From assembly GCF_900240995.1 (NCBI RefSeq), contig NZ_LT965956.1:1-64000 (forward strand): a DNA stretch of 64,000 bases, read 5' to 3'. This document shows, piece by piece, positions 2,158 through 58,649 of the stretch (the stretch's first letter is position 1; every line of letters starts with the position of its first letter). A program made the position numbers and the translations under genes. The notes beneath the pieces are model-generated. The model had not been told where the DNA came from. It saw only the letters and a list, made by a program, of their open reading frames with translations, and made no database searches. The DNA is from Bacillus sp. Marseille-P3661 (GTDB taxonomy: Bacteria > Bacillota > Bacilli > Bacillales > Bacillaceae_J).

Positions 2158-2185
2158 AAAGGAGTTGTTTATACAACTTCTTTTT
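2158..2185 (+). terminator. Terminator after nitrate transporter
   Basis: AAGGAGTTGT / ACAACTTCTT stem with a four-base loop followed by T-rich DNA, directly after the transporter stop codon. Confidence 0.7.
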
Positions 2186-2223
2186 CAATTATATTTTTGG
2201 ACAGGCAACCATCTTTTGTTGTA

Positions 2224-2240
2224 TGTAACAATAGGTGACA
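2224..2240 (+). promoter_or_regulatory. TnrA-like box upstream of nasD
   Basis: TGTAACAATAGGTGACA fits the 17-base TnrA consensus TGTNANAWWWTNTNACA with a single mismatch (G for T at position 11). It lies about 150 bases before the nasD start, in the only sizeable gap upstream of the nitrite reductase operon, and mirrors the box before the transporter gene. Confidence 0.65.
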
Positions 2241-2390
2241 TGATTATGATAATTTAAATGTCATTAATAGGTTTATTTTGAAAAAGTATGCAAGGAAATC
2301 TAACAACATGCTTGAGCTGCCAAAATAATTACCATAACATACACCTATATACAAATGGTTTATTTGAAAAAAGAAAGTGAGGAGAATTTC

Positions 2391-34089: not shown

Positions 34090-36486
34090 ATGAAGACCGA
34101 CATTCACGAGATTGGAATTTCGGAAACAAAAGAAAAAAAGGTGGCAATGAAAAAGAACAAAAGTCTTTTCGGAGCCCCAGTTCCCCGAAAAGAAGATGCT
34201 CGCTTACTTACTGGACGTAGTCAATACATCAGTGATTTACATTTACCAGGGATGTTACATGCGGCCTTCGTACGAAGTCCACTGGCACATGCTAAAATAA
34301 CATCTTTTAATATAGAAGAAACTGTAGACATGGAAGGAGTTGAAGCAATCTTAACGGGAGAAGATCCTGAGGTTTCAAGTCTTTCACTTCGAGCTATTTC
34401 GGAATTGTCAACTTATAAAACTACTAAACAACCGATATTAGCTTGGCCAAAGGTCAGGTACTGTGGAGAGCCTGTTGCCGTTGTAGCTGCTACAGATCGC
34501 TATGTTGCAGAGGATGCTGCAGAGCTAGTAGATGTAGATTATGATGAGTTGCCAGTAGTGATAGATGCATCAACGGCTGTAAATTCAGAACCTGCATTAG
34601 TACATGATGAGGCACCAGATAATGTTCTTGTATATAGGAAATTTGATAATGGTGATTGTGAAGATGCCATAGCTAATGCGGAGCTTGTTGTTAGACGGAC
34701 TTTTAAGACGAACCGCCACCAGGGTGCTCCGATGGAGGGGCGGGCATGTGTGGCCGTATGGGAAAGTTTGGAGCGAAAACTTACCCTGTACAGTTCCACT
34801 CAAGTGCCACATTTAGTGCGTCATGGTTTGGCAGATGTATTAGGGCTTTCAGAAAACCAAATTCAAGTCATTACACAGGATGTTGGTGGTGGATTTGGTG
34901 TAAAGGCTATTTTCTATCCTGAGGATGTTGCGATTTGTCTATTGGCGATGAAAACGGGGCGTCCTGTTAAATGGGTTGAGGACCGAAGAGAGGGTCTAGC
35001 TACTAATACTCATTCAAGAGAACAAAGACATGATATTGAAGTAGCTTTCGATTCTGAAGGGCACATTTTAGCAGTAAAAGATCGTATTCTTTGTGACGTA
35101 GGTGCATACTCAGTTTATCCATGGACAGCTGGAATTGAGCCACTTATGGCTGGAGGACTATTGACAGGACCTTATAAGGTTGAAAATTATTTCTGCGAAA
35201 CCTATGGGGTTTGTACCAATAAAGCTCCCGCCGGTCCATATCGTGGTGTAGCACGCCCTGCGACTACATTTGTAATGGAAAGAGTTATGGATATTGCTGC
35301 GCGCTCGCTGAATATAGATCCTGTTGAAATTCGACTACGTAATCTTGTTATGCCTGAAGATCTTCCATATAAATCAGCTACTAAGTTGATTCATGATAGC
35401 GAAGCATACCCAGTATGCCTAGACAAAGTATTGGAAGCGATAGATTACGATAAATTGAGAGTTGAGCAGAAAAAGTTACGTCAACAAGGAAGGTATATCG
35501 GAATTGGAATTGCTTGTTACAATGAATTGACAGGTTTAGGAAAGAAGGCCTCTGCTGGACCAAGAATGGAATTTCGGACTGGTCATGAAGCAATGACTAT
35601 TCGGATTGACCCAAGCGGAAAAGTCTCTGTTTTAGCTGGAGTGACATCACAGGGCCAAGGGCTGGAGACTACGATGGCTCAATTGGTTGCATCTGAATTA
35701 GGAGTTCCTTTAGAGGATGTTCAAATTCATATGGGAGATACAAAGTTAAGTCTATTTGGATTTGGTGCTTTTGCCAGCCGACAAGCGGTAATTGGTGGTG
35801 GTGCAGCGCTTCGGACTGCAGCGGCTATTAAAGAAAAAGTATTTCAAATTGCTGGTCACATTTTAAAAACATCTCCAGAAAACCTGGAAATGGAGGATGG
35901 TATAATTTGGGATTGTAATAACCCGAACGAAACAACTAGTTTAGCAGACGTCGCTAATATTGCTTATATGCGATCACATCTGTTGCCAAAAGGTATAGAG
36001 CCTGGATTAGAAATGACACGATTCTATGATCCAGTTCACGGAACATTTGCCGGGGGTGCTCAGGCCTTTGTTGTCGAGGTACTTCCTGATACTGGTGAAG
36101 TTTCTATCCTGCGCTGTGTTTGTTCGGAAGATAGTGGAAAGGTTATTAATCCTTTAGTAGTAGATGGCCAATTACATGGAGCTATTGCTCAAGGAATAGG
36201 CGGTGTTTTATATGAACATGTACGCTATGATGAAGACGGTCAATTGCTTTCAGGAAGCTTAATGGATTACTTGCTGCCGACTTCTGCAGAAATCCCAAAT
36301 ATAGAATTGCGTCATGTCTCATTCCCATCTAAGAATCTTGGTGGAATGCGAGGTGCTGGTGAAGGCGGAACTTTAGGTCCTGCTGCGGGTATAGCAAATG
36401 CTGTTGCTGATGCTTTAAGCCATCTTAATATCGAGATAAATGAATTGCCCATTACTCCATCCAAGGTTAGGGATTTAATGCGCTAA
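34090..36486 (+). CDS. Molybdenum hydroxylase large subunit (CoxL/xanthine dehydrogenase family)
   Basis: About 798 residues. Typical N terminus (GAPVPRKEDARLLTGRSQYISDL), Moco-binding segments TQDVGGGFGVKA, SQGQGLETTMAQLVASELG and the catalytic Glu region GMRGAGEGGTLGPAAGIANAV. The active-site loop reads PYRGVARPA, not the AYRCSFR of true form I CO dehydrogenase, so it is a form-II-like hydroxylase acting on an organic substrate, probably an aromatic or heteroaromatic acyl-CoA given the ligase nearby. It uses the Mo-cytosine dinucleotide type cofactor by family. ATG at 34090 has GGGAGG nine bases upstream; an alternative ATG at 34147 has AAGGTGG. Confidence 0.92.
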   Translation: MKTDIHEIGISETKEKKVAMKKNKSLFGAPVPRKEDARLLTGRSQYISDLHLPGMLHAAFVRSPLAHAKITSFNIEETVDMEGVEAILTGEDPEVSSLSLRAISELSTYKTTKQPILAWPKVRYCGEPVAVVAATDRYVAEDAAELVDVDYDELPVVIDASTAVNSEPALVHDEAPDNVLVYRKFDNGDCEDAIANAELVVRRTFKTNRHQGAPMEGRACVAVWESLERKLTLYSSTQVPHLVRHGLADVLGLSENQIQVITQDVGGGFGVKAIFYPEDVAICLLAMKTGRPVKWVEDRREGLATNTHSREQRHDIEVAFDSEGHILAVKDRILCDVGAYSVYPWTAGIEPLMAGGLLTGPYKVENYFCETYGVCTNKAPAGPYRGVARPATTFVMERVMDIAARSLNIDPVEIRLRNLVMPEDLPYKSATKLIHDSEAYPVCLDKVLEAIDYDKLRVEQKKLRQQGRYIGIGIACYNELTGLGKKASAGPRMEFRTGHEAMTIRIDPSGKVSVLAGVTSQGQGLETTMAQLVASELGVPLEDVQIHMGDTKLSLFGFGAFASRQAVIGGGAALRTAAAIKEKVFQIAGHILKTSPENLEMEDGIIWDCNNPNETTSLADVANIAYMRSHLLPKGIEPGLEMTRFYDPVHGTFAGGAQAFVVEVLPDTGEVSILRCVCSEDSGKVINPLVVDGQLHGAIAQGIGGVLYEHVRYDEDGQLLSGSLMDYLLPTSAEIPNIELRHVSFPSKNLGGMRGAGEGGTLGPAAGIANAVADALSHLNIEINELPITPSKVRDLMR

Positions 36487-42305: not shown

Positions 42306-43694
42306 GTGTTAGGAAAGAAAAGAGAATATGGTAAAGAACAGCCATACGCGATGGGGCCTTTAAAATTAAGATTACCTTTTATTCACTACAAATTTGAGTA
42401 TCCTGATTTTATTCAAGGAGCATTATTATGTATCATTCCGATGTCAGGTGCTACGATTATGGAGCAAGTTTTAGGGATCCCTTTCGAAATAAGTGTACTC
42501 ATGCTAGCTATTACTAACTTTTTGTTCTTATTGCATACACATTTCGGAGATCCAGTTGTAGCTGGTTGGGTTACAGCAGGCATACCTGTCTATATTACCT
42601 TTCTAAATGGATTCCCTGAGGGAGAAGCTAGAATTCAAGCCCTTATTGCATTACAGTGCACCCTTGCCTTCATATTTTTATTTATGGCAATATTTAAAGG
42701 GGCAGATGCCTTTGTTAAAAGGGTTCCACTCTCTTTAAAAGCAGGCATATTACTCGGTGCAGGTCTTGGAGCTATTATTGGTGAGTTTTCTACCGGAGGA
42801 AGAGTATGGAGTATGCCAATTAGTATGCTTGTAGCAGTTGGCCTTGCCTTCTTCATGATGTTTTCAAAAACTGCAGAACCTCTTAGAAAAAAATACACCA
42901 CGTTTCGTTTTATTGCTCAATTTGGAATTGGACTTCCTTTTGTAATTTCCTTTGTACTTGGAATTCTAATCGGTGAAGTAGCTGTACCAGATATAAAGTG
43001 GTATTTTATCCCATCCTCAATCGGTGAAATAGTTAGCAGCTATAGTATATTTGCCGTTGGAATCCCACCATTTGAATACTTTTTGAGGGCGCTACCAGTG
43101 GCATTTAGTGCGTATTTGATCGCTTTCGGGGATATCCTTGTGATTGAATCTTTATTATCAAATGCAGATAAAGTACGCAAGGATGAGAAACTTATCTTTA
43201 GCCCAACACGTAATAGTTTTATTCTATTTATTCGCAATTTTATTCAAAGTATTTTTTCACCACACTTTGGACTTGGTGGCCCGATGGTAGGTGGTGGTCA
43301 AGCAATCGTAACATCTAGGTATATCAACAACCCTCGTGAACATTTAGATAGTTATTGGGGAAGCGCAGCTTGTTTTCATTGGGGGATGAGTAGTGCTTTA
43401 CTAATCGGCCCAATTGTAACACTTTTCCAACCAGGCTTAGCAATTGGAATGACACTAAATCTAGTTATTCAAGGATTTTTATGTGCATATCTTGCGATTG
43501 CAATGTTAAAACAAGGTGATGATGTACAAAAAGGGGTTGCGGCTATTATTGCAGCTGTATTAGTCACCCAAGGTGCAGCCGTTGCATTGGGGATAGGCAT
43601 TGGACTTTGGCTAATTCTTGAACGTGTTTGGATTAAGGATAAAGTGGTTGAAACTGTTTCCGAAGAAGAGGATATTACAGAAAAAATAGGATGA
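42306..43694 (+). CDS. Orphan multi-helix permease
   Basis: About 462 residues with roughly 10-12 hydrophobic helices; no signal peptide. Conserved-looking glycine-rich helices (HFGDPVVAGWVTAGIPVY, SLKAGILLGAGLGAIIGEF, GGPMVGGGQAIV) suggest a secondary transporter distantly like NCS2/SulP carriers or the uncharacterised DUF3360 group. GTG start with GGAAGTGATGG upstream. Controlled by two regulon motifs and a cre box, so it is probably the uptake system for the substrate of the Mo-hydroxylase pathway. Substrate not assignable from sequence. Confidence 0.7.
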   Translation: MLGKKREYGKEQPYAMGPLKLRLPFIHYKFEYPDFIQGALLCIIPMSGATIMEQVLGIPFEISVLMLAITNFLFLLHTHFGDPVVAGWVTAGIPVYITFLNGFPEGEARIQALIALQCTLAFIFLFMAIFKGADAFVKRVPLSLKAGILLGAGLGAIIGEFSTGGRVWSMPISMLVAVGLAFFMMFSKTAEPLRKKYTTFRFIAQFGIGLPFVISFVLGILIGEVAVPDIKWYFIPSSIGEIVSSYSIFAVGIPPFEYFLRALPVAFSAYLIAFGDILVIESLLSNADKVRKDEKLIFSPTRNSFILFIRNFIQSIFSPHFGLGGPMVGGGQAIVTSRYINNPREHLDSYWGSAACFHWGMSSALLIGPIVTLFQPGLAIGMTLNLVIQGFLCAYLAIAMLKQGDDVQKGVAAIIAAVLVTQGAAVALGIGIGLWLILERVWIKDKVVETVSEEEDITEKIG

Positions 43695-43854: not shown

Positions 43855-44973
43855 TTATTGGGCCTTCGTAATCATTTGTGTTCTTCCAATTTTATCAAAA
43901 ATCCATCGGCTAAAACTAGTATCCCAATCATGGATAATCCCTTTCTTATGAATGGGGCCGTTTTGTTTTTTTAACGGCATTCCAGGGGAATTAGTAGCAT
44001 AACTAATAATTTCAGAAAGAATACTTATAGCAATTTCCTCAGGGGTTTCAGCCCCAATATCCAAACCAATTGGCGAATGGCAGTATTCTTTACTTAGAAT
44101 ATCTTGTTCTTTAAGAATACGCTCTGTTCTTTTTCTTGGTCCTAGAATTCCTAAATATGATAAACGGTAGGATAACAAATGGTTTAAAAATAGAGAATCT
44201 TGTTCAAAGTGATGTGTCATAATCACTACATAATCTTTTTCGTAAATATCAAGATTTTCTGGGAATTTTCCAATCGTAGAGATAATAAGCTCATCAGCTT
44301 CTGGAAATTTCTCTTTGTTAGCATAACCTGGTCTATGATCCACAACAGTCACAAGCCAATTAAGAAGTTTGGCACCACGCACAAGAGGAACGGCGTCTGG
44401 TCCTGCTCCCAAAATAATTAGTCGGGGGATCTTCTTTAATTTTTCATAATAGATCTCTAACTGAACATCATCATCCTTTACCGTAAATAAACCTGCTTTA
44501 GAAGGATGAATCATCTGAGTGCTCTTTGCTTGGTCAAGATTATATCTAGTCGCTATAGGGTATAGGTGGGGATGACTAGAAGAAATAATTGTCGCTGTGG
44601 AAATTTGATTTTGAAGAATGGTTAACGTTTCAAGTGCTTTTTCTTGTTGTTTAATGGGCTCAAATGGTTCAATCCAAATCTTTAATGCACCATTACAGCC
44701 AACGCCTAATCCCCAAGGTAAATCCTCATCTCCAAAAAAATCATAATCTATTATACGAGGAATTAAGGTGGACATAACATTCTTTGCGTGTTCAAATATA
44801 TCTTCCTCGATACAGCCGCCGCTAAGAGTTCCCAATATCGTTCCATCAGGTAAAATAATACTCTTTGCTCCTACAGAACGATATGTTGACCCTGCAGTTT
44901 GAATGATAGTTGCAATCGCTGCACTGCTTTTCGTTGCCCAACACTGTTCAAGTCTCCTTATAATTTCTAACAT
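43855..44973 (-). CDS. xdhC: XdhC/CoxI-family molybdenum hydroxylase maturation factor
   Basis: About 372 residues: N-terminal XdhC/CoxI domain (GSTYRSVGAKSIILPDGTILGTLSGGCIEEDIF) and a C-terminal Rossmann domain (LIILGAGPDAVPLVRGAKLLNW; LGILGPRKRTERIL). By family it binds and sulfurates the Mo cofactor and inserts it into the CoxL-type enzyme. I chose the ATG at 44973 (AAAAGGAGTG upstream); the open frame extends to 45072 without a ribosome site. The motif at 45017-45038 places it under the same control as the structural genes. Confidence 0.9.
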   Translation of the reverse strand: MLEIIRRLEQCWATKSSAAIATIIQTAGSTYRSVGAKSIILPDGTILGTLSGGCIEEDIFEHAKNVMSTLIPRIIDYDFFGDEDLPWGLGVGCNGALKIWIEPFEPIKQQEKALETLTILQNQISTATIISSSHPHLYPIATRYNLDQAKSTQMIHPSKAGLFTVKDDDVQLEIYYEKLKKIPRLIILGAGPDAVPLVRGAKLLNWLVTVVDHRPGYANKEKFPEADELIISTIGKFPENLDIYEKDYVVIMTHHFEQDSLFLNHLLSYRLSYLGILGPRKRTERILKEQDILSKEYCHSPIGLDIGAETPEEIAISILSEIISYATNSPGMPLKKQNGPIHKKGIIHDWDTSFSRWIFDKIGRTQMITKAQ

Positions 44974-45016
44974 ATTTACACTCCTTTTATTAATTTTTTC
45001 TATAATACGGATGTTA

Positions 45017-45038
45017 CATATTGCGTATACGTCATATA
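45017..45038 (-). promoter_or_regulatory. Regulon motif copy 7, upstream of xdhC
   Basis: CATATTG, CGTATACG (perfect palindrome), TCATATA; ATAT arms at the same distance from the centre as in copy 2. It abuts the -10 of the xdhC promoter. Confidence 0.6.
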
Positions 45039-45063
45039 ATATAATCATATATCTTATTTTCAA
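45036..45063 (-). promoter_or_regulatory. Promoter of xdhC
   Basis: Minus strand TTGAAA (45058-45063), 16-base spacer, TATTAT (45036-45041). Confidence 0.5.
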
Positions 45064-45239
45064 AATTTTCAAGACATTTGAACTGAGCTGTAAAAATTGG
45101 ATTTTTAGGATGACAATAGATATTTGGGGGGATGCTTTTTTTCTTGCAAAGAGCTTTTTTAGGCATTACTTGTAATCTTGCTTTTTAAGTTTATATACAT
45201 CTGAAATTAATTGTTTGTAATATGTATGTTACATTACTA

Positions 45240-45456: not shown

Positions 45457-46050
45457 ATGGGAAAGAAAAAAACGAACTTAGCACCAAAGCGAAAACGAAT
45501 GAATAGAAAGGGAAGGTTACTGAGTGGAAAGGAATGGATAAAAACATACAAGGGGAAAAACATTGTCAAGTCTTATGCTAAGTGGTTTGGGGTCAATAAA
45601 ATCTGTGCGATGACAGAGCTAGAGATGTTGGGAATACAGATCTCAGAGAAAACCAAGATGAACATAAAACAAGGAGAAACTGACAAAGTACGAGCAAGAC
45701 AGCTCCGGAAGAAAAGGAGTAAAGAGCAAATATTACTAGAGAACTATTTTTATGATTATTCTTATGACTTTGATGACATCTTCTCTTCCGAAGAAGGTTA
45801 TATAGAAGAAACAATGACGATTGGCATTACTTATGAAGAACAAGGAGAAAACGACAAGAAAGAATGTTTCTCCTATATTAATGAATTTGGTGAATGTGTC
45901 TATTATGACTCACCTGAGGATATGTGGTTAGATTATCTCTTAGTGGAACAGCAAACTACAGATACGAACGAATTCTGGTACTCAGACAATTTTGAATGGG
46001 AAAGTTATTTTGGTCATCTTCAACCCGCATTTTGGTTTCTTCCCCTGTAA
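45457..46050 (+). CDS. Uncharacterised protein, basic N terminus and acidic C terminus
   Basis: About 197 residues. The first ~90 residues are strongly basic (GKKKTNLAPKRKRMNRKGR, RARQLRKKRSKEQ) and contain WIKTYKGKNIVKSYAKWFGV, a small helical segment that recurs in uncharacterised Bacillus proteins; the rest is acidic and aromatic. AAAGGAG site before the ATG; a terminator follows. Basic character suggests nucleic-acid binding, but no known domain was recognised. It interrupts the catabolic regulon and sits next to a possible mobile-element remnant. Confidence 0.6.
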   Translation: MGKKKTNLAPKRKRMNRKGRLLSGKEWIKTYKGKNIVKSYAKWFGVNKICAMTELEMLGIQISEKTKMNIKQGETDKVRARQLRKKRSKEQILLENYFYDYSYDFDDIFSSEEGYIEETMTIGITYEEQGENDKKECFSYINEFGECVYYDSPEDMWLDYLLVEQQTTDTNEFWYSDNFEWESYFGHLQPAFWFLPL

Positions 46051-48157: not shown

Positions 48158-49072
48158 CTAGTTCACTGACTCTTCTATACAAATCCTATCTTTTAAAAAG
48201 CTTAAAAACTTTTTGTGATTGGGATAATGTGGTTTATCAGGTCTTGCCACAAGCATCAGATCGAGATAAACCGAGCCACTTTCTAATTGTAACTGTTTCA
48301 ATTTTCCTACCTTTAGCTCTTCATTTACACTCAATTTAGAAAGAATAGTTATCCCGTTACCAATACTAATGATTTGCTTAATACTCTCTATGTCTTCGTA
48401 TTGCATCAATATTTCATTAATTTTAATTCCTCGAGAATGAAGCATGTTCTCGATTACTTGATAATTGTAGGAGGATAAAACGACAAAAGGATAATTCGAT
48501 ATATCTGAGGGTGTTACATGATTCTTTGTTGCTAACGGATGACTAGGTCCAACTACTAGGGTTAATTCCGTATTTACGATTGGAGTGGCGGTTAGATTTT
48601 CTGGAACCTTTTTTCCAATGATGAAACCAAAATCGATTTCCTTTTCTAAAGTCATTTGAAATATTTGTTTTGAATTTCCCACTCGGAGGTTTAGATTTAT
48701 ATGAGGGTTTTCCCTCATAAAGTTACTTATTATCTTAGGTAATATATACCTAGCCGGTGTAGTGCTAGCGCCCACTGTTATATTTCCAATGTTTCCTTGC
48801 TTAACTTCTTGTAACGTTAAAAGGATCTCCTTGCTTAGATTCAATACTTGTTTTGTGTAATTATAAAAATGGTTTCCTGCTTCAGTAGTCGTTATCGTGC
48901 GTCCTCGGTCTAAAAGTATCACTTGTGTTTCTTTTTCAAGTGCACGAATATGTGCACTTACAGCTGGTTGGGATATATTTAAAATTTCAGCAGCAGAACT
49001 AAAACTTTGGGAATTAACAACCTCATAAAATACCTTTAATCTATACATGTTTGACAAGATATCAGGGTTCAT
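48158..49072 (-). CDS. LysR-family transcription regulator
   Basis: About 304 residues: N-terminal helix-turn-helix (FYEVVNSQSFSSAAEILNISQPAVSAHIRALE) and a periplasmic-binding-like effector domain (GNITVGASTTPARYILP). Divergent from the nitroreductase/P450/dehydratase genes, so it probably activates them in response to a pathway compound. The gap contains an ATAAC-N5-GTTAT site. Confidence 0.88.
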   Translation of the reverse strand: MNPDILSNMYRLKVFYEVVNSQSFSSAAEILNISQPAVSAHIRALEKETQVILLDRGRTITTTEAGNHFYNYTKQVLNLSKEILLTLQEVKQGNIGNITVGASTTPARYILPKIISNFMRENPHINLNLRVGNSKQIFQMTLEKEIDFGFIIGKKVPENLTATPIVNTELTLVVGPSHPLATKNHVTPSDISNYPFVVLSSYNYQVIENMLHSRGIKINEILMQYEDIESIKQIISIGNGITILSKLSVNEELKVGKLKQLQLESGSVYLDLMLVARPDKPHYPNHKKFLSFLKDRICIEESVN

Positions 49073-49351: not shown

Positions 49352-50092
49352 TTGAATGAAACCATTAGGTTATTGCAAAATCATCGTTCGATAAGAAAAT
49401 TTACTGATGAGCCGATCTCACCGGAACTAATGAATGAAATTTTTCACTCAGCACAGATGGCTTCGACTTCAACCAATATGCAGGCATATAGTGTGATTGC
49501 GGTAACAAATCCCGAGCTTAAGACCGAGTTGTCTGTCCTTACTGGCAATCAAAAACATGTGGAGCAATGTCCAATATATTTAGTATGGTGTGCCGATTTA
49601 AATCGCTTGAAAATTACGTGTGAATTAAATTCCAAAGAACCCTCTTATCTTAACAGCATGGAAAATTTTATTGTGGCGAATGTAGATACTGCATTAGCTG
49701 CACAAAATGCAGCAATTGCAGCAGAATCTGCAGGGCTAGGAGTAGTATTTGTCGGAGGGGTACGGAATCGTATCAGAGAGGTTACTAAGTTATTAAACAT
49801 ACCTGAATTAGTCTTTCCTTTGTTTGGTATGTGTTTAGGTTATCCAGTTCAGCAACCTATAATCCGACCAAGATTGCCATTAGAAGTGGTTGTACATAAC
49901 GATTACTATCAAGACGAACATTTTGAAAAGTATATTTCTGAGTATGACAATCAAATAGAAAAATATATGATGGAGCGAACTCGAGGGAAAAGAAATGATA
50001 AATGGTCTGATATTATGACTGATAAACTATCACATCCTATTCGAATGCACATGTCAACATACATTGAAGAACAGGGATTTAAACTAGAATAA
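49352..50092 (+). CDS. NfrA-like NAD(P)H flavin oxidoreductase (nitroreductase family)
   Basis: About 246 residues, the size of B. subtilis NfrA. FMN-binding HRSIRKFTDEPIS at the N terminus, ASTSTNMQAYSVIAV and GLGVVFVGGVRN are typical. It reduces FMN or nitro/quinone compounds using NAD(P)H. TTG start with AAAGGGG upstream; no in-frame ATG is nearer. A candidate -10 (TATAAT, 49306-49311) precedes it. As first gene of the operon it could feed electrons to the P450 or to the dehydratase pair. Confidence 0.85.
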   Translation: MNETIRLLQNHRSIRKFTDEPISPELMNEIFHSAQMASTSTNMQAYSVIAVTNPELKTELSVLTGNQKHVEQCPIYLVWCADLNRLKITCELNSKEPSYLNSMENFIVANVDTALAAQNAAIAAESAGLGVVFVGGVRNRIREVTKLLNIPELVFPLFGMCLGYPVQQPIIRPRLPLEVVVHNDYYQDEHFEKYISEYDNQIEKYMMERTRGKRNDKWSDIMTDKLSHPIRMHMSTYIEEQGFKLE

Positions 50093-50134: not shown

Positions 50135-50233
50135 ATGAGCGACATAGAAAATAGGAAGTTGGATTCAGATTCTATTGTTGATGGAAACTGCTCTAAGGAG
50201 AATACTGTCTGGAATCCTTTAGACCTATTATGA
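50135..50233 (+). CDS. Short frame, probably the frameshifted N terminus of the P450
   Basis: 32 codons, strong AAAGGAG site before its ATG, ending NTVWNPLDLL at a TGA that overlaps the ATG of the P450 frame. WNP is the kind of sequence found just before the conserved N-terminal helix of bacterial P450s. A single-base indel in CCTTTAGACC (about 50216-50225) would join the two into a normal ~405-residue enzyme. Either a real mutation, a sequencing error, or a coupled leader peptide. Confidence 0.5.
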   Translation: MSDIENRKLDSDSIVDGNCSKENTVWNPLDLL

Positions 50234-51351
50234 TTAAGAATCCTGATGAAGTGTATGGGATATTACGGGCGGAATGCCCTGTGGCTCATACCGACCAAGT
50301 AGGCGGAGCATGGGGGTTTTTCAAATATGAGGACATTGTAAAAGCGACTCTTGATATAGAAACTTTCTCTAATGGGGAATCTAGAAATCGAGATTTACCT
50401 CGTTATCCTTTAGAGGCAGACCCGCCTTTTCATACGGCTTATCGAAAAATATTGCAGCCATTTTTTAATTCAAGAGTAATGGATGAATGGGAGCACATTG
50501 TCCGAAATTTAGTTATTGAAATGCTTGAACCACTTATTTTTAAAAAAGAGATGGATATGGCTAAAGATTTTAATTATATTCTACCAGTTCGTGTTATTTT
50601 ATCTTTTCTTCATCTTCCCGATCAAGATTGCTATAGAATAGGTCAATTGTCTGAGGATATTTATCACTCCTCATATGGAAAAAATCCTGAAAAATATGCA
50701 GCTACAGTGGAGTCGTTGAAACTATACTGTCATAAGGCAGTTGCAGGTCGTAAAACCTCACCATTAGATCCTCAAAAAGATATGATTAGTAAGTTATTAC
50801 AAAGTCAAATTGATAACCAAGATATAAGTGTTAAAAGTGTTGCTGGTATTCTTCATTTGCTATTAACTGCTGGACATGACTCAACAACTAGTTCATTAGG
50901 AATAATCATCAATTATTTAGCGCAAAACCCAAATGACCAAAAGCGGATACGTGAAAACACATCTTTAATACCAATGGCCATAGAAGAAATTTTACGATAT
51001 GAGACACCTGTTCAGAGAATGCCCCGGACTATAACTAAAGACTTCGATTTACATGGTCAAAAGTTAAAGAAGGGAGAAAAGGTCTTTCTCGTCTGGGGTT
51101 CAGCAAACCGTGATGAAGAGGTATTTGATAATGCAGATAAATGCATAATAGACCGCAAACCAAATCGTCATCTTGTATTTGGACATGGTATCCACCATTG
51201 TCTTGGTGCACCGTTAGCACGACTAGAACTACGCGTCGCCTTGGAGGAACTGCTTCACAGAACAAAATCTTTTGAATTAAATGGCAATGTGGTTCGTACT
51301 GGCTATCCGCGTTTTGGGGTTAGTTCCTTGCCTTTAATACTTTGTACTTAA
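50230..51351 (+). CDS. Cytochrome P450
   Basis: About 373 residues from the internal ATG. I-helix oxygen-activation motif LTAGHDSTTSS, the ExxR in EEILRYETP, and the haem loop FGHGIHHCLGAPLARLE with the axial Cys are intact. Soluble class I bacterial P450 needing separate redox partners; none of ferredoxin type is adjacent, the nearest being the NfrA-like flavoprotein. The frame starts at residue ~30 of a normal P450; see the preceding entry. By position it oxidises the compound handled by the following CoA enzymes, but substrate is unknown. Confidence 0.9.
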   Translation: MIKNPDEVYGILRAECPVAHTDQVGGAWGFFKYEDIVKATLDIETFSNGESRNRDLPRYPLEADPPFHTAYRKILQPFFNSRVMDEWEHIVRNLVIEMLEPLIFKKEMDMAKDFNYILPVRVILSFLHLPDQDCYRIGQLSEDIYHSSYGKNPEKYAATVESLKLYCHKAVAGRKTSPLDPQKDMISKLLQSQIDNQDISVKSVAGILHLLLTAGHDSTTSSLGIIINYLAQNPNDQKRIRENTSLIPMAIEEILRYETPVQRMPRTITKDFDLHGQKLKKGEKVFLVWGSANRDEEVFDNADKCIIDRKPNRHLVFGHGIHHCLGAPLARLELRVALEELLHRTKSFELNGNVVRTGYPRFGVSSLPLILCT

Positions 51352-51436: not shown

Positions 51437-52585
51437 ATGGTAAACAACTATTCTGACTCAATGACTAGTTTAGAATATTTGGAGCAGATATATGCTGAGC
51501 GTGATCAAAGAGCACTAGAATTGAAGAAAGAAGGAAAAAAAATAGTAGGTATTCTTGGTAACGATGTACCTGAAGAAATTTTAATAGCTGCTGACATGAT
51601 ACCTATATATATATTTGGGGATCCGAATGGAGACATGAATCATGCAAATCGTTATTTGGAAACCGGATCCACACCACTTGTAAGAGCCCAATTTGAAAGG
51701 ATTATCAACGGGTCTTATTCGTATCTTGATTACCTTGTTATCTCTAGTTCAGCGGATTCAATTACACGTGCCTTTTACTATTTACGTTCAATTCGCAAAG
51801 TAGAGCCCGAAATGAAGATTCCAGAGCTATATTATTTTGATTTTCTTCATTCGATGAATCGGACTAGCGCTTTATACAATCGTGACCGAGCACGCGAATT
51901 TCGACAAAAAGTTGAAAGTTGGGCTGGGAAGAAGATTACTGATGAATCTATTAGAAAGGCTTTGATAACATGTAATGAAAATCGTGAACTTCTGTCTAAA
52001 TTAAATGATTTACGAATAGCAAAAGAGCCGTGCGTGAGTGGGGTTCAGGCTTTAATCATTTCTAGTGTTTCCTTATGTATACCAAAAGATGAACATAATC
52101 GATTATTAAGGTCATTCTTAAGAGATGAAAAGTTTCCTAAGTTATCGGGAGTACGTTTGTTTGTTACTGGAAGCACGCATGATCATACAGAATTTTACGA
52201 ACTAGTCGAATCCTCCGGAGCAATTATCGTTGGTGAAGATCATGATTTAGGCAGTAGATTATACGAAGGTAAACTAGACTTAACAGTTGATCCTATAGAT
52301 ACCATTACCGATAGATATCATTTCCGGATTCCGAGCACAAGACAATCTACCGTTTCTGTTAGGGTAGATGCATTGGTTAATGAAGTTCAGCATTGCGGAG
52401 CACAAGGAGTCATCTTTTTTATTCATAATGACGATGATGCACCGTCTTGGGATTATCCAGAACAGCGTAAGGCTCTAGAAAATCTAGGGATAAAGGTTCT
52501 GCTTTTGGATCGTCAAAATTATAAACTTGAAAATAAAGATAAGCTACAATCTATCATCACTACTTTTATTCATTCAATAGATTAA
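51437..52585 (+). CDS. 2-hydroxyacyl-CoA dehydratase family protein, subunit lacking Fe-S cysteines
   Basis: About 382 residues with the two alpha/beta domains of the HgdA/HgdB/BcrC family (EEILIAADMIPIYIFG; DYLVISSSADSITRAFYYLRS; GVRLFVTGSTHD; CGAQGVIFF). In active dehydratases three Cys bind a [4Fe-4S] cluster: here the first position is ETGSTPLVRA, the second SSSAD where SCD is normal, and the third FIHNDDDAPSW, so all three are absent. Start at 51437 follows AAGGGGG. Paired with the next gene, 22 bases downstream. It may be a structural or regulatory partner, or a subunit with a new chemistry. Confidence 0.82.
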   Translation: MVNNYSDSMTSLEYLEQIYAERDQRALELKKEGKKIVGILGNDVPEEILIAADMIPIYIFGDPNGDMNHANRYLETGSTPLVRAQFERIINGSYSYLDYLVISSSADSITRAFYYLRSIRKVEPEMKIPELYYFDFLHSMNRTSALYNRDRAREFRQKVESWAGKKITDESIRKALITCNENRELLSKLNDLRIAKEPCVSGVQALIISSVSLCIPKDEHNRLLRSFLRDEKFPKLSGVRLFVTGSTHDHTEFYELVESSGAIIVGEDHDLGSRLYEGKLDLTVDPIDTITDRYHFRIPSTRQSTVSVRVDALVNEVQHCGAQGVIFFIHNDDDAPSWDYPEQRKALENLGIKVLLLDRQNYKLENKDKLQSIITTFIHSID

Positions 52586-52607
52586 AAACTAAAGGAGGCG
52601 ATTTAAA

Positions 52608-53927
52608 TTGGAAAACCAAACGTCAAATGACCTTCATCGGAAGAAACCAGATGTTATTGCAAAACATCAAGAGAAACGATTGAGTTTAGCTGCAGAAGCT
52701 AACCGCTACCATAAAAAATGGTTTATGGATATGAAGGAAAGAGTAGCACAAGGTGAACCATTCGCATTTGTTACAGCACAAGTTCCTCAAGAAATATTTC
52801 GAGCAATGGATATTCCGTATGTGGTAAATCAATGGTGGTCCTCAATATGTTCTGCTAAGCAGATGTCATCTTATTATTTTGGATTACTAAATGAAAAAGG
52901 GTATCGTCAAGACCTTTGTCAATATTGTTCTCTTTCCTTAGCATCTTCGTTGGAACCGGAAAAAGGACCATGGGGGGGACTGCCAAAACCAACGTTATTA
53001 GTGACGCGCTATTCATGTGATTCGCAAGCTAAAATATTTGAGTTAATGTCTAAACAATATGGAGATATACCATTATTTCTTTTAGAAAGTACAGTGACTT
53101 CTACAATTCCAGAAAATTGGTGGGAAAAAATGCCCCACGATTGGGATGAGCTTTTTGATTCGCATCGACTTGATTTAATGGTAGAAGAGTATAAAGGTCT
53201 TATTCGATTTCTAGAAGAACATACAGGCAAGACTTTTAGTGAAACAAAATTTCGAGAAATTATGAAACTTGTAAACGAACAAGCAGCTTATAACAAAAAA
53301 AGTCGTGATTTAATTGCAGGAACTTCACCTTCACCTGTTAGTATTACAGATACGATACCAGCAGTTATGATCCCGCAGTGGCATAGAGGGACTCAATGGG
53401 CTGTTGATAATGCGCGTAAACTGTATGAAGAAATCAAGGCCCGAGTTGAAAATGGTGATTCTGTTATAAAAAATGAGCGCTTGCGAATCATGTGGGTAGG
53501 ACGCGCTTTATGGTACAATATGGGACTTTTTCAACATTTTGAAAAACAATATGGTGCTGTATTTATTTGGGCGATATATTTAGCTATAGCTGCTGACGGA
53601 TATGCTAGGTATGGCGGAGACCCGTTGCGTGCACTAGCTAGTCGATTTGCAGGAATGGAAGATTTATTGCATATGCCACCATGGAATAGTGAATGGTATC
53701 TTGATCAAGCGAAGAAAAATAATGTAGATGCGGTTGTCCATATGGTTACAGAAGGCCACATGGGCTCGGGGGGCACATATTTCATTCGGAAAGCATTCGA
53801 AGATGCAGGGATTCCAATACTAGAATTGCGTGCCGATGCCGTAGATGCTCGCAAATGGGATGAAGATTCGATCATCGGAAGGATTGAAGAATTTTTTGAA
53901 AATGAGTTAGGAGTGAAACCGCAATGA
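52608..53927 (+). CDS. 2-hydroxyacyl-CoA dehydratase family protein, second subunit
   Basis: About 439 residues, same family (FAFVTAQVPQEIFRAMDIPYVVNQWW; ILELRADAVDARKWD). First and second cluster cysteines are kept (DLCQYCSLSLASS and RYSCDSQAK); the third position reads TEGHMGSGGTY with no Cys. By family it would remove water from an (R)-2-hydroxyacyl-CoA by a ketyl-radical route or reduce an aromatic acyl-CoA. No ATP-dependent activator (HgdC/HadI/FldI type) is in the window. TTG start after a perfect AAAGGAGGCG. It overlaps the CoA-transferase gene by four bases. Confidence 0.85.
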   Translation: MENQTSNDLHRKKPDVIAKHQEKRLSLAAEANRYHKKWFMDMKERVAQGEPFAFVTAQVPQEIFRAMDIPYVVNQWWSSICSAKQMSSYYFGLLNEKGYRQDLCQYCSLSLASSLEPEKGPWGGLPKPTLLVTRYSCDSQAKIFELMSKQYGDIPLFLLESTVTSTIPENWWEKMPHDWDELFDSHRLDLMVEEYKGLIRFLEEHTGKTFSETKFREIMKLVNEQAAYNKKSRDLIAGTSPSPVSITDTIPAVMIPQWHRGTQWAVDNARKLYEEIKARVENGDSVIKNERLRIMWVGRALWYNMGLFQHFEKQYGAVFIWAIYLAIAADGYARYGGDPLRALASRFAGMEDLLHMPPWNSEWYLDQAKKNNVDAVVHMVTEGHMGSGGTYFIRKAFEDAGIPILELRADAVDARKWDEDSIIGRIEEFFENELGVKPQ

Positions 53928-55141
53928 ATGAAACAGCGCTAGATGGGGTGGTTGTACTAGATTTAACACAATTTGAAGCTGGAACAGTTTGTACACAGAC
54001 ACTAGCTTGGCTTGGTGCTACTGTAATTAAATTAGAACCTCCCGTTACAGGTGAACAGGGGAGGTGGGTTTCAAGGGATAAAGAGGATGAAGATGCATAT
54101 GGCTTTCTTTTGCTTAATTCAAACAAAAAATCAGTGACGGTCAATCTAAAAACGGACGAAGGAAAAGAACTTGTAAAAAAAATGGCGGAAAAAGCTGATG
54201 TATTTGTCGAAAACTATGGTCCAGGCGTAATAGAACGTCTTGGATTGGATTATGAAACGTTAAAAAACATCAACCCACAAATTATTTATGCCCAGATAAA
54301 AGGGTTTGGAAAAGACGGACCGTATGCTAATTTACCTGCATTTGACCCTATAGCACAAGCCGTTGGTGCCTCGATGAGTCTAACAGGCGAACCAGATGGG
54401 CTCCCGATGCGTCCAGGATTTGCTGCATCTGATAGCGGTGCTGGTTATCATTGTACGATTGGTATTTTAGCAGCACTTCGTCAGCGGGATAAGACTGGTA
54501 TTGGCCAAAGAATTGAAATAGCCATGCAAGATGTGATGATTAATTTCTGCCGCTCTGCTTGGGGGCGTCAGCTCGTTACTGGCAAAGCTACGACACGTGG
54601 GGGCAATGGTAATCGTCTGGGTTTAACTGCTCCATCTAATTTATATCCATGTAAGCCTTTTGGAAAAAATGATTATGTCTATGTTTATGTCTCCCGAGTG
54701 CCAAGTAGTTCACAATGGGAACGTTTATTAAAAGCACTCGACCGATTAGATTTATTATCGGATTCACGTTATAAAACTCCTGAATCTCGATACGAACATC
54801 GTCATGAACTTGACAAGCTTATTAGTGAATGGACGAGTCAATATACAAAATATGAAGCAATGGAAATACTAGGAGCTCATGGTGTACCAGCAGGTGCAAT
54901 CCTTGATACGAAGGATATTACCAATGATCTATACCTACGAGAGCGGGGAACAATGGTAGAGATCAATCATCCCGTCCGTGGTAAGGTAGTAATGCCAGGG
55001 AATTCAATAAGATTATCAGAATCAAATGTTCCTATTAAGCCTGCACCTTTGCTAGGAGAACATAATAAAGAAATATATGAAGAAATGTTGGCGTTAACTA
55101 GTGAAGAATTGGAATATTTACGTGAGTCTGGAGTAATTTAA
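53924..55141 (+). CDS. Family III CoA-transferase (CaiB/BaiF)
   Basis: About 405 residues. LDLTQFEAGTVCTQTLAWLGATVIKLEPP, NSNKKSVTVNLKTDEGKELV, VENYGPGVIERLGLDYETL and the loop GFAASDSGAGYHC with the catalytic Asp are typical. It exchanges CoA between acids. Overlap with the dehydratase subunit mirrors FldA-FldBC and HadA-HadBC, in which a CoA-transferase loads the hydroxy acid for the dehydratase. Confidence 0.92.
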   Translation: MNETALDGVVVLDLTQFEAGTVCTQTLAWLGATVIKLEPPVTGEQGRWVSRDKEDEDAYGFLLLNSNKKSVTVNLKTDEGKELVKKMAEKADVFVENYGPGVIERLGLDYETLKNINPQIIYAQIKGFGKDGPYANLPAFDPIAQAVGASMSLTGEPDGLPMRPGFAASDSGAGYHCTIGILAALRQRDKTGIGQRIEIAMQDVMINFCRSAWGRQLVTGKATTRGGNGNRLGLTAPSNLYPCKPFGKNDYVYVYVSRVPSSSQWERLLKALDRLDLLSDSRYKTPESRYEHRHELDKLISEWTSQYTKYEAMEILGAHGVPAGAILDTKDITNDLYLRERGTMVEINHPVRGKVVMPGNSIRLSESNVPIKPAPLLGEHNKEIYEEMLALTSEELEYLRESGVI

Positions 55142-55355: not shown

Positions 55356-56417
55356 ATGATAAAAAGTAGGTTCCTACGCATAGGTTTACTATTTTTAATA
55401 ACGTTTTTAACAACCGCTATTCTGTTGGGATGTACATCTAAAGAAGTAGAAACTACTTCTGAACCGGTAAAAGAAACTCCAGATCCAGGTACAGAAGTTA
55501 AAGGTGAGTCAGAATGGCCTACAGAGCCTGTTACGATTCTAGTTCCATTGGATCCTGGTGGTGGTGTTGATGTAATGGCAAGAGGTATAACAAACTATCT
55601 ACCAAAACATCTAGGTGTTCCGGTTGTAGTTGAGAATATAGGAGGAGGATTGAGTATTCCAGGAATGATGGAATATGTCAGTAACAGGCCTGATGATGGC
55701 AGCACACTGCTAGCTACATGGCAAACTGTTTTATCAGATCGTTATATTAATCATGGTGCTAAATACACAATTGATGATTTCTCTTATATTAATATCCATC
55801 AGACTGACCCAGTATCTATCATAACTCCTAAAGACTCGCCATGGAATACATTGGAAGAATTGATCAATGACATGAAAGCAAGACCGGGTGAAATTCCTGT
55901 GGGCTATTTGAGTGGTGCAGCCAGTCAGATTGCAGCTCAGAATTTTATGGATGCTTTAGGTTTGGAGCCACGTTATGTAGCATTTGATGGCGGATCAGAA
56001 TTTAGACTAGCAGTTGCTGGTGGAGATGTTGCTGTTGGTTTCGGTCACTCAATTGGAGATTATTCGTTTGAGGAAGATTTAAAGATGTTAGCTATCTATT
56101 CCAAAGAGTCTTTCGAACTGTGGCCTGAAGTTCCATTAATAAATGACACATTAAAACCTTTTGGTGTGGAATTAAATGCAAATTTAGCATCAACGAGAAT
56201 GCTGGCTGTTCATAGTAGTTTTCAGGAAAAATACCCTGACCGTTGGGAAAAGTTATTGGATGCCTATCAAAACATGCTTAATGACGAGGAATATAAAGCT
56301 CATTTAGAAGAATCGGGTGAAGATGTTGCGACAAGATGGTTAGGACCGGATGAATCTTTAAAAGTAACGAAAGAAATGGATGAATTGGTACTGCGTTATA
56401 GTGAGAAAGCAAAGTAA
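55356..56417 (+). CDS. Tripartite tricarboxylate transporter substrate-binding lipoprotein (TctC/BugT)
   Basis: About 353 residues. Signal peptide with lipobox LLGC, then a Glu/Pro-rich linker. The mature domain has the TctC pattern (WPTEPVTILVPLDPGGGVDVMARGI, GVPVVVENIGGG, DVAVGFGHS). It binds a carboxylate outside the cell for the TctAB permease. AAGGGGG site. A strong terminator follows, so it is made in excess over the permease. Confidence 0.9.
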   Translation: MIKSRFLRIGLLFLITFLTTAILLGCTSKEVETTSEPVKETPDPGTEVKGESEWPTEPVTILVPLDPGGGVDVMARGITNYLPKHLGVPVVVENIGGGLSIPGMMEYVSNRPDDGSTLLATWQTVLSDRYINHGAKYTIDDFSYINIHQTDPVSIITPKDSPWNTLEELINDMKARPGEIPVGYLSGAASQIAAQNFMDALGLEPRYVAFDGGSEFRLAVAGGDVAVGFGHSIGDYSFEEDLKMLAIYSKESFELWPEVPLINDTLKPFGVELNANLASTRMLAVHSSFQEKYPDRWEKLLDAYQNMLNDEEYKAHLEESGEDVATRWLGPDESLKVTKEMDELVLRYSEKAK

Positions 56418-56473
56418 GTAATCCAAACATTACAATAAAGTTTTAAGTATAACCAAAATTAACAAGAAAATTT

Positions 56474-56517
56474 AGGGGATTAAATGAAAAGAAAAACTAT
56501 TGTTTAATCCCCTTTTA
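56474..56517 (+). terminator. Intra-operon terminator after the binding-protein gene
   Basis: AGGGGATTAAA / TTTAATCCCCT, perfect 11-base stem, then T-rich DNA. Confidence 0.8.
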
Positions 56518-56597
56518 AGTATTGGGATTACAGATTATTAGATGAAAGACTCTTTCTTTTAGAGATTCTTAATTATATGCAAGGTGAGGGGTCTAGA

Positions 56598-57056
56598 TTG
56601 AATTATTTTCGGTTACTAAAGCGAACCATTTTACCACTTTTACTGTATGTCTTTATTTTTAAACATTATCTGGAAGTTAAAGCTGCACCTAATCCATACG
56701 ATATATTGTTAATAAAAGTAATGCTAATTATTGCTTCGGTTTCTTTTGTTTTTATATTAATCGAAGAATACAAACTTCAAAGAGTTAAGAAGGATGACTC
56801 TCACAATGATAAAATTATTTTTTCAAGGTCACAGCTTGTTTTATTCACCTATATAGTTTTATATGTCGGAGCTTTATATGTATTTGGCTTTGTGCTTTCA
56901 ACTGTTTTATTCCTTGTTTTTTCGTTTTTACATTTGAAATATTCAAATTGGAAGATATGTATACTAACCCCCATTTGTTTTGCTCTTTTTTTACACTTGA
57001 TATTTGTAGAATTATTAAGTTTAAAACTTCCATCAGGAATACTATGGGCATTGTAA
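56598..57056 (+). CDS. Tripartite tricarboxylate transporter small membrane subunit (TctB)
   Basis: About 152 residues, four predicted membrane helices, the expected TctB size. I prefer the TTG at 56598 (AAGGTGAGG eight bases upstream, product starting MNYFRLLKR) over the ATG at 56577. Located between the TctC and TctA genes, which is the main support because TctB sequence is poorly conserved. Confidence 0.8.
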   Translation: MNYFRLLKRTILPLLLYVFIFKHYLEVKAAPNPYDILLIKVMLIIASVSFVFILIEEYKLQRVKKDDSHNDKIIFSRSQLVLFTYIVLYVGALYVFGFVLSTVLFLVFSFLHLKYSNWKICILTPICFALFLHLIFVELLSLKLPSGILWAL

Positions 57057-57140
57057 ATATGATTGTTGGGTAGGAGAGTTATAAACTCTGTTCATATTAA
57101 CCGCCGAACATACACTTGTTTAAAGAAGGAGGGATAAATA

Positions 57141-58649
57141 ATGGTTGATTGGCCGGCACTTTTTGATGGTATTAATATGGTTTCCACCTGGAGTATCCTA
57201 TTCTTGTCGATCTTAGGTGTAATATTAGGTATTGTTCTAGGTATGATCCCAGGACTAAGTGCCACTATTGGTATAGCATTAATGTTACCTATGAGTTACC
57301 ATATGGATGCCCTTTCAGTGATGGTATTAATGTTGGGAATATATACTGGCGGGCTGTATGGTGGTTCTATTACAGCTACATTAATTAATACACCTGGAAC
57401 CCCAGGCTCTGCATTTACTGCACTTGAAGGCTACCCAATGAATCAACAGGGAAAAGGTCTTTTGGCTTTAAACGTAGGTTTGATATCATCCGTTCTTGGT
57501 GGAATTATAGGGATTATTATGCTGTTTTTGTTTCTAGAGTTATTATCTAAAGTTGCTTATAGTTTAGGGTCAGCAGAATTGTTCATGATCGCCTTTTTCG
57601 CATTAGCAATCATTGCGACGATTAGTAAGGAAAGCATAGGGAAGACGTTTTTTATCGGAAGTGTTGGAATAGTATTAGCAAATATTGGGGTTTCTCCAAC
57701 AGGCTTTACCGTTGGGACTTATGGCCAAGTCTATTTACTTGAAGGCATCCCTTTAATTCCAGCATTAATAGCATTGTTTGCTTTTCCGGAAGTTTTTTCT
57801 CTTATCGAAAAAAATTATATAACTTCAAATACTGACATAAAGCAACTACTAAGGAAAAGTTTTTTTAAAGAGTTCATCGCTGCCTTTAAAATTGTAATCA
57901 AACATCCATTTACAGTGATCAGGTCAGCTTTAATAGGTGTATTTGTAGGGATGATTCCGGCAGCAGGAGCGTCTGTTGCTTCCTTAATTTCGTATGGTGA
58001 GGCAAAACGAGCATCAAAAGAACCGGAGTTATTTGGCAAAGGGGCGAAAGAAGGTTTGATTGCTTCTGAAAGCGCAAACAATGCCTCGGAGGGTGGATCT
58101 TTAGGTACAGCCATTTGTCTTGGAATTCCTGGTAGTGCGGCAACAGCAATGATGCTGGCTGCTCTCACGCTGCAAGGGATAATGGCAGGTCCAAAAATGA
58201 TAAGAGATCATAAAGACTTTATTTATGGAATTATTGCAGTAGAATTTGTACAAATGTTTTTGTTGCTTCTTATAGGTTTAGTGATTATATTTGTCAGTTT
58301 TAGGCTTGTTTTAATTCCTGCCAAAATTATTGCACCTTGTTTAGTTATCCTTTGTTTGATCGGAGCTTATGCTAACAGGTTTACACTTTTTGATGTATGG
58401 CTAGTTATTCTTCTTGGTATTATTGGCTATTTTCTTAAAAAATTTGATTATCCTATTATAGCGCTAGTCCTAGGTTTATTGTTGGGAGATATGTTAAATA
58501 CTGAATTGATTCGAGTAGCTCAAATAAATGCTATGGACTTCACAGTGTTTTTTAAGCGTCCTATTAGTTTGATCTTATTTATTTTGACTTTATTGACAGT
58601 TGCACGTTCGTTTTATATTGATTTTAAGAAAGGGAGTTTAAAATCATAG
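57141..58649 (+). CDS. Tripartite tricarboxylate transporter large membrane subunit (TctA)
   Basis: About 502 residues, ~11-12 helices. Signature glycine-rich loops: GMIPGLSATIGIALMLP, GGLYGGSITATLINTPGTPGS and GMIPAAGASVASLISYGEAKRAS, with GIPGSAATAMM. It forms the ion-driven pore. With the CoA-transferase upstream, the carried solute is probably the acid consumed by the dehydratase/P450 genes. Confidence 0.93.
   Translation: MVDWPALFDGINMVSTWSILFLSILGVILGIVLGMIPGLSATIGIALMLPMSYHMDALSVMVLMLGIYTGGLYGGSITATLINTPGTPGSAFTALEGYPMNQQGKGLLALNVGLISSVLGGIIGIIMLFLFLELLSKVAYSLGSAELFMIAFFALAIIATISKESIGKTFFIGSVGIVLANIGVSPTGFTVGTYGQVYLLEGIPLIPALIALFAFPEVFSLIEKNYITSNTDIKQLLRKSFFKEFIAAFKIVIKHPFTVIRSALIGVFVGMIPAAGASVASLISYGEAKRASKEPELFGKGAKEGLIASESANNASEGGSLGTAICLGIPGSAATAMMLAALTLQGIMAGPKMIRDHKDFIYGIIAVEFVQMFLLLLIGLVIIFVSFRLVLIPAKIIAPCLVILCLIGAYANRFTLFDVWLVILLGIIGYFLKKFDYPIIALVLGLLLGDMLNTELIRVAQINAMDFTVFFKRPISLILFILTLLTVARSFYIDFKKGSLKS

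Follow-up and report, generated by a model that had tools for sequence, protein, structure and literature searches.

A protein pair of Bacillus sp. Marseille-P3661 belongs to a clade of the HGD-D superfamily without canonical cluster ligands in the beta subunit

Two adjacent genes in a 64,000-nucleotide stretch of the Bacillus sp. Marseille-P3661 genome (contig NZ_LT965956.1, positions 1 to 64,000; hereafter, the window) encode a pair that belongs to the HGD-D fold superfamily and, within it, to a new clade. This clade, the NQWW clade, is marked by an alpha subunit with Gln at the position of the catalytic Glu followed by two Trp, and by a beta subunit without the canonical Cys triad. The superfamily is noted for extreme low-potential, oxygen-sensitive radical chemistry that requires ATP-driven electron injection. 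The window pair should not be classed as a canonical 2-hydroxyacyl-CoA dehydratase, because four tested features of the canonical component D are missing: three alpha Cys, three beta Cys, the catalytic Glu, and an activator gene. Instead, it probably catalyses a non-reductive, activator-independent reaction of a CoA thioester, which would take place in alpha, and beta would act as a scaffold. A limited literature search returned no paper on the NQWW clade, which is weak evidence of absence.

Results

The window pair and its gene group

The pair is accompanied by the following genes (coordinates of the window):

48158..49072, minus strand: LysR-type regulator, transcribed away from the gene group
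49352..50092, plus strand: NfsA-type nitroreductase, upstream of and co-directional with the pair, role putative
50230..51351, plus strand: cytochrome P450, upstream of and co-directional with the pair, role putative
51437..52585, plus strand: beta-like HGD-D subunit, with T80, A107 and D334 at the ligand positions and no cluster Cys
52608..53927, plus strand: alpha-like HGD-D subunit, with C104, C107 and C137 kept, the third canonical Cys absent, Q75 instead of the canonical catalytic Glu, and Y106 and Y324 kept in the pocket
53924..55141, plus strand: family III (CaiB/Frc type) CoA-transferase
55356..58649, plus strand: tripartite tricarboxylate transporter, linked to the pair by position only, comprising the next three genes
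55356-56417, plus strand: TctC-type receptor
56577-57056, plus strand: small membrane protein where TctB would be expected, assigned from place and size only
57141-58649, plus strand: TctA

The best start for the beta-like gene is the ATG at 51437, preceded by AAGGGGGAA, and the alpha-like gene starts with the TTG at 52608, preceded by AAAGGAGG, both of which are good ribosome sites; residues of beta are numbered on a translation beginning one codon ahead of the ATG. The alpha-like gene and the CoA-transferase gene overlap by 4 bases. By position only, the LysR-type gene is a possible regulator of the gene group, and the TctC/TctA-type transporter is the probable means of substrate uptake for the pair.

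Elsewhere in the window, a xanthine-dehydrogenase-type molybdenum subunit (34090-36486) and an XdhC-type protein (43855-45072) were found, along with a NirB-like nitrite reductase protein (2355-4799) and two ORFs that matched no Pfam family (462 aa, 42306-43694; 197 aa, 45457-46050).

A superfamily fold with altered cluster ligands

Both window proteins scored far over the cut-off of the Pfam HGD-D profile (PF06050; beta-like, 178 bits; alpha-like, 191 bits; cut-off, 28.4 bits). The closest solved structures by sequence were BzdN for beta and HadB for alpha. The model of window beta (pLDDT 93.7) superposed on BzdN, its best match in fold as well as in sequence, over 367 residues (Z 48.1, 1.9 Å), and on HadC with a Z of 43.5, and the beta fold is intact as modelled. 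The alpha fold was tested on a fused relative, the natural beta-alpha fusion at locus L018 (model pLDDT 83.5), and that of window alpha was judged by sequence. The alpha half of the fusion matched HadB (Z 40.3) and the beta half matched HadC (Z 34.6), although separate beta rows were aligned to the alpha half, so that the modelled beta half rests on few rows. The three-domain HGD-D fold of HadBC and BzdNO is present in the window pair on these grounds, namely the beta model and, for alpha, the fusion together with sequence, in agreement with the first-pass annotation, made from the letters of the DNA, in which both proteins were said to keep the fold signatures of the family.

Fusion of beta and alpha into one ORF was seen in three anaerobe-type Bacillota MAGs (L015, L017, L018). 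Close to the fused ORF of L018 lies a glycyl radical enzyme gene (774-3182), and L015 has an ORF with a similar start.

The pair did not fall into the more narrowly defined families that share this fold. Scores against the bzd models were 129 and 74 bits (cut-offs 454 and 449), and the pair does not belong to the class I benzoyl-CoA reductases as delimited by the BzdN/BzdO or BcrC/BcrB equivalogs. The same was true of the double-cubane cluster protein (DCCP), which has a common fold with window beta (Z about 43; DCCP with DCCP-R, PDB 6eno, 7yyl) but bears a cluster and has its own ATP-dependent reductase, neither of which is present here; scores for the DCCP equivalog NF040772 were 104 and 54 bits (cut-off 350), and the beta ligand Cys were lacking.

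Ligand positions were compared in an alignment that joined 84 alphas and 82 betas of the clade to canonical reference rows (17 alphas and 18 betas), among them HadB/HadC, MbdO, and BzdN. The canonical ligand columns were occupied by Cys in 17 of 17 alphas at each position and in 17/18, 18/18, and 18/18 betas. Window beta has T80, A107, and D334 in these columns (0/3 Cys). As read off the alignment, it also lacks the three Cys of the distal cubane of BzdN, a protein whose double cubane is held by six Cys. In window alpha, the first two columns are Cys (C104 and C137) and the third is a gap (2/3 Cys). By comparison, HadBC of Clostridioides difficile (with HadA and HadI; PDB 3o3m-3o3o), an alpha-beta pair of common fold, combines 3+3 cluster Cys with an ATP-driven activator, against two canonical Cys in alpha, none in beta, and no activator for the window pair. 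The beta cluster ligands are missing throughout the clade, with D, C or S, and D in their place in 68 of 82 betas.

The first subunit had been described in the first-pass annotation as devoid of Cys at its three cluster positions, and the aligned residues bear this out, with no shifted Cys in window beta. For alpha, the stated count of two canonical Cys out of three was right, but the Cys assigned through a 'QYC' motif is not a canonical ligand; it is C107, an additional residue, and the canonical C104 sits three residues before it. To say that the pair had lost most of its ligands was too strong for alpha, in which C107 probably substitutes and of which a paralogue in the same genome has all three. 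Every clade alpha with both C104 and C137 (16 of 16) also has C107, which is missing from the 68 cluster-less and the 17 canonical alphas; these counts come from related sequences and thereby overstate independence. Because of this co-occurrence with C104 and C137 and its absence elsewhere, C107 is likely a substitute cluster ligand of the NQWW clade, replacing the lost third Cys in window alpha, where C104, C107, and C137 may together bind a [4Fe-4S] cluster.

Activator genes and oxygen

In the canonical path, electrons pass from the activator to the beta cluster and on to the alpha cluster (PMC11574389), a route that cannot run in the window pair because there is no beta cluster. A search of the 99.8% complete host genome with the PF01869 and TIGR00241 profiles found no ATP-driven activator, which extends to the whole genome the earlier statement that the window holds none, and no activator gene is linked to the pair. 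The weak PF01869 matches in the host were other kinases, namely a GlcNAc-kinase-like protein, one of the ROK type, and one of the FGGY type. With TIGR00241, nothing came near the cut-off in the host, in four aerobic Bacillota hosts of the clade, or in most actinobacteria, and the same model found activators in control records. The clade pair comprises the only HGD-D genes of those four Bacillota. Where an activator was present in actinobacteria, in three hosts, it adjoins a separate canonical pair, and in the anaerobic clade hosts, activators lie on contigs other than that of the clade pair; in the anaerobic hosts of members with three alpha Cys, these could act in trans on the clade pair.

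Conceivably, the window pair could act as a canonical reductive 2-hydroxyacyl-CoA dehydratase with an activator encoded elsewhere and missed, as the fold and the CoA-transferase neighbour match HadABC and the anaerobic hosts of related pairs do carry activators in their genomes. This can be regarded as extremely improbable, given two family models that detected the controls and returned no activator from a nearly complete genome, zero cluster ligands in beta, and a Gln at the catalytic Glu position.

The host and the aerobic groups carry haem-copper oxidase genes, which were found in none of eight anaerobic-type genomes with 3-Cys members. The aerobic character that had been read from the neighbouring genes is in keeping with the oxidase genes of the host, but the supposed flavin reductase among those neighbours is the NfsA-type nitroreductase, which scores above the NCBIfam cut-off for that type.

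Activator-linked pairs of the same family do occur in aerobic genera. Plasmid pairs of Rhodococcus ruber (L096), Sphingopyxis (L095), and Rhizobium (L094) have all cluster Cys and an activator gene nearby and fall outside the NQWW clade. Full canonical pairs with an adjacent activator were observed in Rhodococcus, Prauserella, and Amycolatopsis (L096, L102, L103, L104, L116), and such complete sets of cluster Cys together with an activator are unexpected in aerobic actinobacteria.

A retained pocket and carboxylates in the cluster position

In the class I benzoyl-CoA reductase BzdNO/MbdON (PDB 8s02, 9g87), Tyr97 and Tyr298 of BzdO contact the thioester oxygen, and BzdO Glu65, the equivalent of HadB E55, is the acid/base catalytic Glu (PMC11971306). 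The counterparts of the two Tyr, Y106 and Y324 in window alpha, are Tyr in 84 of 84 clade alphas. In contrast, the catalytic Glu position, Glu in 17/17 canonical alphas, is Gln in 84/84 clade alphas (Q75 in the window) and also in two later matches outside this count; a BzdPQ-type activator is likewise absent from the window host. Mean column identity among the clade alphas is 61%, with 50 positions invariant across cluster-bearing and cluster-less members. By analogy with BzdO, the retained residues of the clade alpha pocket would bind a CoA ester.

The cluster-less alphas share a distinct set of acidic residues. Exactly one acidic residue occurs at the former Cys104 or at 107 (68/68), an acid replaces R134 (68/68), D138 is kept (68/68), and an acid is found at 383 in 67 of 68. 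Fisher tests in this analysis (p = 0.016 and 0.008) ignore the relatedness of the sequences and are not taken as proof. A tentative reading, which we consider possible though doubtful, is that a catalytic [4Fe-4S] was replaced by a carboxylate site, possibly with a metal ion, with the window protein as a re-ligated intermediate (C104, C107, C137).

Phylogeny and distribution of the clade

A genome scan recovered 80 loci in the Bacillota, Actinomycetota, Chloroflexota, and Spirochaetota, to which plasmid records added sphingomonad and Rhizobium loci. In nearly all loci, the beta gene lies ahead of the alpha gene. The NQWW clade and the subclade with no alpha cluster Cys were each monophyletic (SH-aLRT 100) in a quick tree with several long canonical branches. 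On this tree, the number of alpha Cys must have changed at least three times: loss of all three Cys in an actinobacterial/Chloroflexota group, loss of the third Cys in the window lineage, and replacement of the third Cys by Asn in the sphingomonads. The beta cluster was lost before these alpha Cys losses. Because they track a well-supported tree, the Cys losses are not due to chance; as had been proposed for checking, they define clades, and these share the CoA-transferase neighbour.

The clade occurs in some anaerobes as well as in aerobic Bacillota, Actinomycetota, and sphingomonads. The clade pair was present in 3 of 299 genomes of the host's phylum (host included) and 2 of 198 Actinomycetota (seed included), and neither the pair nor a close orthologue of window alpha was found in any of 60 relatives of the host. 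This patchy distribution suggests horizontal transfer of the clade pair.

On two sphingomonad plasmids, a 'hypothetical protein' in the beta place (L092:9012-9890; L093:7015-7899) is a shortened beta, which has no Pfam match, lacks part of its middle, and was recognised only by the clade beta profile. A reduced protein of this kind, together with the progressive loss of cofactor and catalytic Glu, would suit a pair that is not an enzyme at all and serves as a CoA-ester-binding sensor, a carrier, or a CoA-transferase assembly factor. The conservation of alpha, its pocket residues, and the carboxylates suggest chemistry beyond binding and make such a role improbable.

A second pair in the host genome

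A profile search of the host's own genome identified a further pair:

G000:C1:1845861-1848205 (L008:7835-10341), minus strand: second HGD-D pair

Both this paralogue pair and the window pair carry the NQWW signature. The paralogue alpha has all three canonical Cys and the extra one, and its locus contains a CoA-transferase, two CapA-type genes, an oligopeptide-type ABC transporter, and CocE-type and carboxylesterase genes. Unlike at the paralogue locus, no CapA-type gene was found near the window pair. The window copy is the faster-evolving of the two, with a longer end branch in the alpha tree (0.44 vs 0.13) and more departures at 101 otherwise fixed alpha positions (9 vs 3).

These differences in rate, the missing CapA-type gene, and the presence of a second pair with three alpha Cys are what would be expected if the window pair had arisen as a copy of the paralogue on contig C1 and were now decaying or newly specialised, in which case its losses would reveal little about the enzyme of the clade. 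We consider this unlikely: the window ORFs are intact, with good ribosome sites and an overlap with the next gene, the pair has its own transporter, Q75, the WW motif, Y106, C107, and Y324 are all retained in window alpha, and its nearest relatives in the tree are not exclusively the paralogue.

Conserved neighbours and candidate substrates

Neighbour counts are approximate, with genes on high-GC loci called by codon-position score. Among 82 clade neighbourhoods, a family III CoA-transferase occurred in 74 and a CapA-type protein in 63, and ABC transporters, PaaX-type regulators, and esterases also recurred. P450 genes were present in 13 of the 82, and the nitroreductase was not among the recurrent neighbour clusters. 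The genes that mark the branch are the CoA-transferase and the CapA-type protein, and not the P450 and the nitroreductase. A CoA-transferase also adjoins the dehydratase pair in the Had and Fld systems, HadA being of family III.

The upstream position and shared direction of the nitroreductase and P450, and the P450 genes in the other neighbourhoods, could point to a reductase or dehydratase that receives its electrons from a neighbouring flavoprotein or P450 system with no ATP-driven activator. As most neighbourhoods contain neither gene, and as benzoyl-CoA reduction is reported at potentials far below any that NAD(P)H can provide, there is little probability of such a supply.

Among CapA-family epimerases (MslH; poly-gamma-glutamate CapA), MslH is the nearest NCBIfam model of the clade CapA-type neighbour, at 118 bits against a cut-off of 700. 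MslH epimerises a C-terminal Trp (PMC9266682), and a putative epimerase activity of the neighbour is only a lead.

Transporter types vary by locus, including ABC (polar amino acids or peptides), TctABC, and TRAP, the last found with TonB-dependent transport in the sphingomonad gene group, and because of these differences, the transporters do not settle the substrate. A di- or tricarboxylate, considered from the TctABC genes of the window and the sphingomonad TRAP genes, was not adopted given this variation, nor was a 2-hydroxyacid, proposed by analogy with HadABC. Phthalate or another aromatic acid was likewise set aside, as gentisate-pathway genes flank some Bacillota loci and not others. In Evansella and Cohnella (L016, L019), gentisate-dioxygenase-like and fumarylacetoacetate-hydrolase-type genes lie near the clade pair, a hint of an aromatic pathway.

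Discussion

The branch entered oxygen-breathing bacteria, where it kept the pocket and dropped electron delivery and, in most members, the cluster too. For the non-reductive enzyme favoured here, we infer a route that would begin with the import of an acid, which the adjoining family III CoA-transferase would convert to its CoA thioester. The thioester would sit in the alpha pocket, gripped by Tyr106 and Tyr324, and there undergo a reaction presumably of the lyase, hydratase, or isomerase type. Beta, without cluster ligands and electron relay, would act as a scaffold. In window alpha, a [4Fe-4S] probably bound by C104, C107, and C137 would have a Lewis acid or structural role, and in the actinobacterial members, the cluster would be gone, with conserved carboxylates in its place. 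The first-pass proposal of a differently working branch, with any cluster confined to one subunit, is in line with the lack of an activator, the ligand-free beta, and the clade-defining Cys losses.

The label under which clade genes appear in databases, '2-hydroxyacyl-CoA dehydratase family protein', implies a reaction that the known mechanism does not allow in most members. The natural series of four, three, and no alpha Cys offers a means to test the need for the cluster, and the carboxylate reading, if true, would amount to a cofactor swap within one family with pocket and gene neighbours unchanged. The recurrent operon hints at an undescribed catabolic pathway. Overall, the branch would show how a low-potential, oxygen-sensitive enzyme converts to aerobic, non-reductive use.
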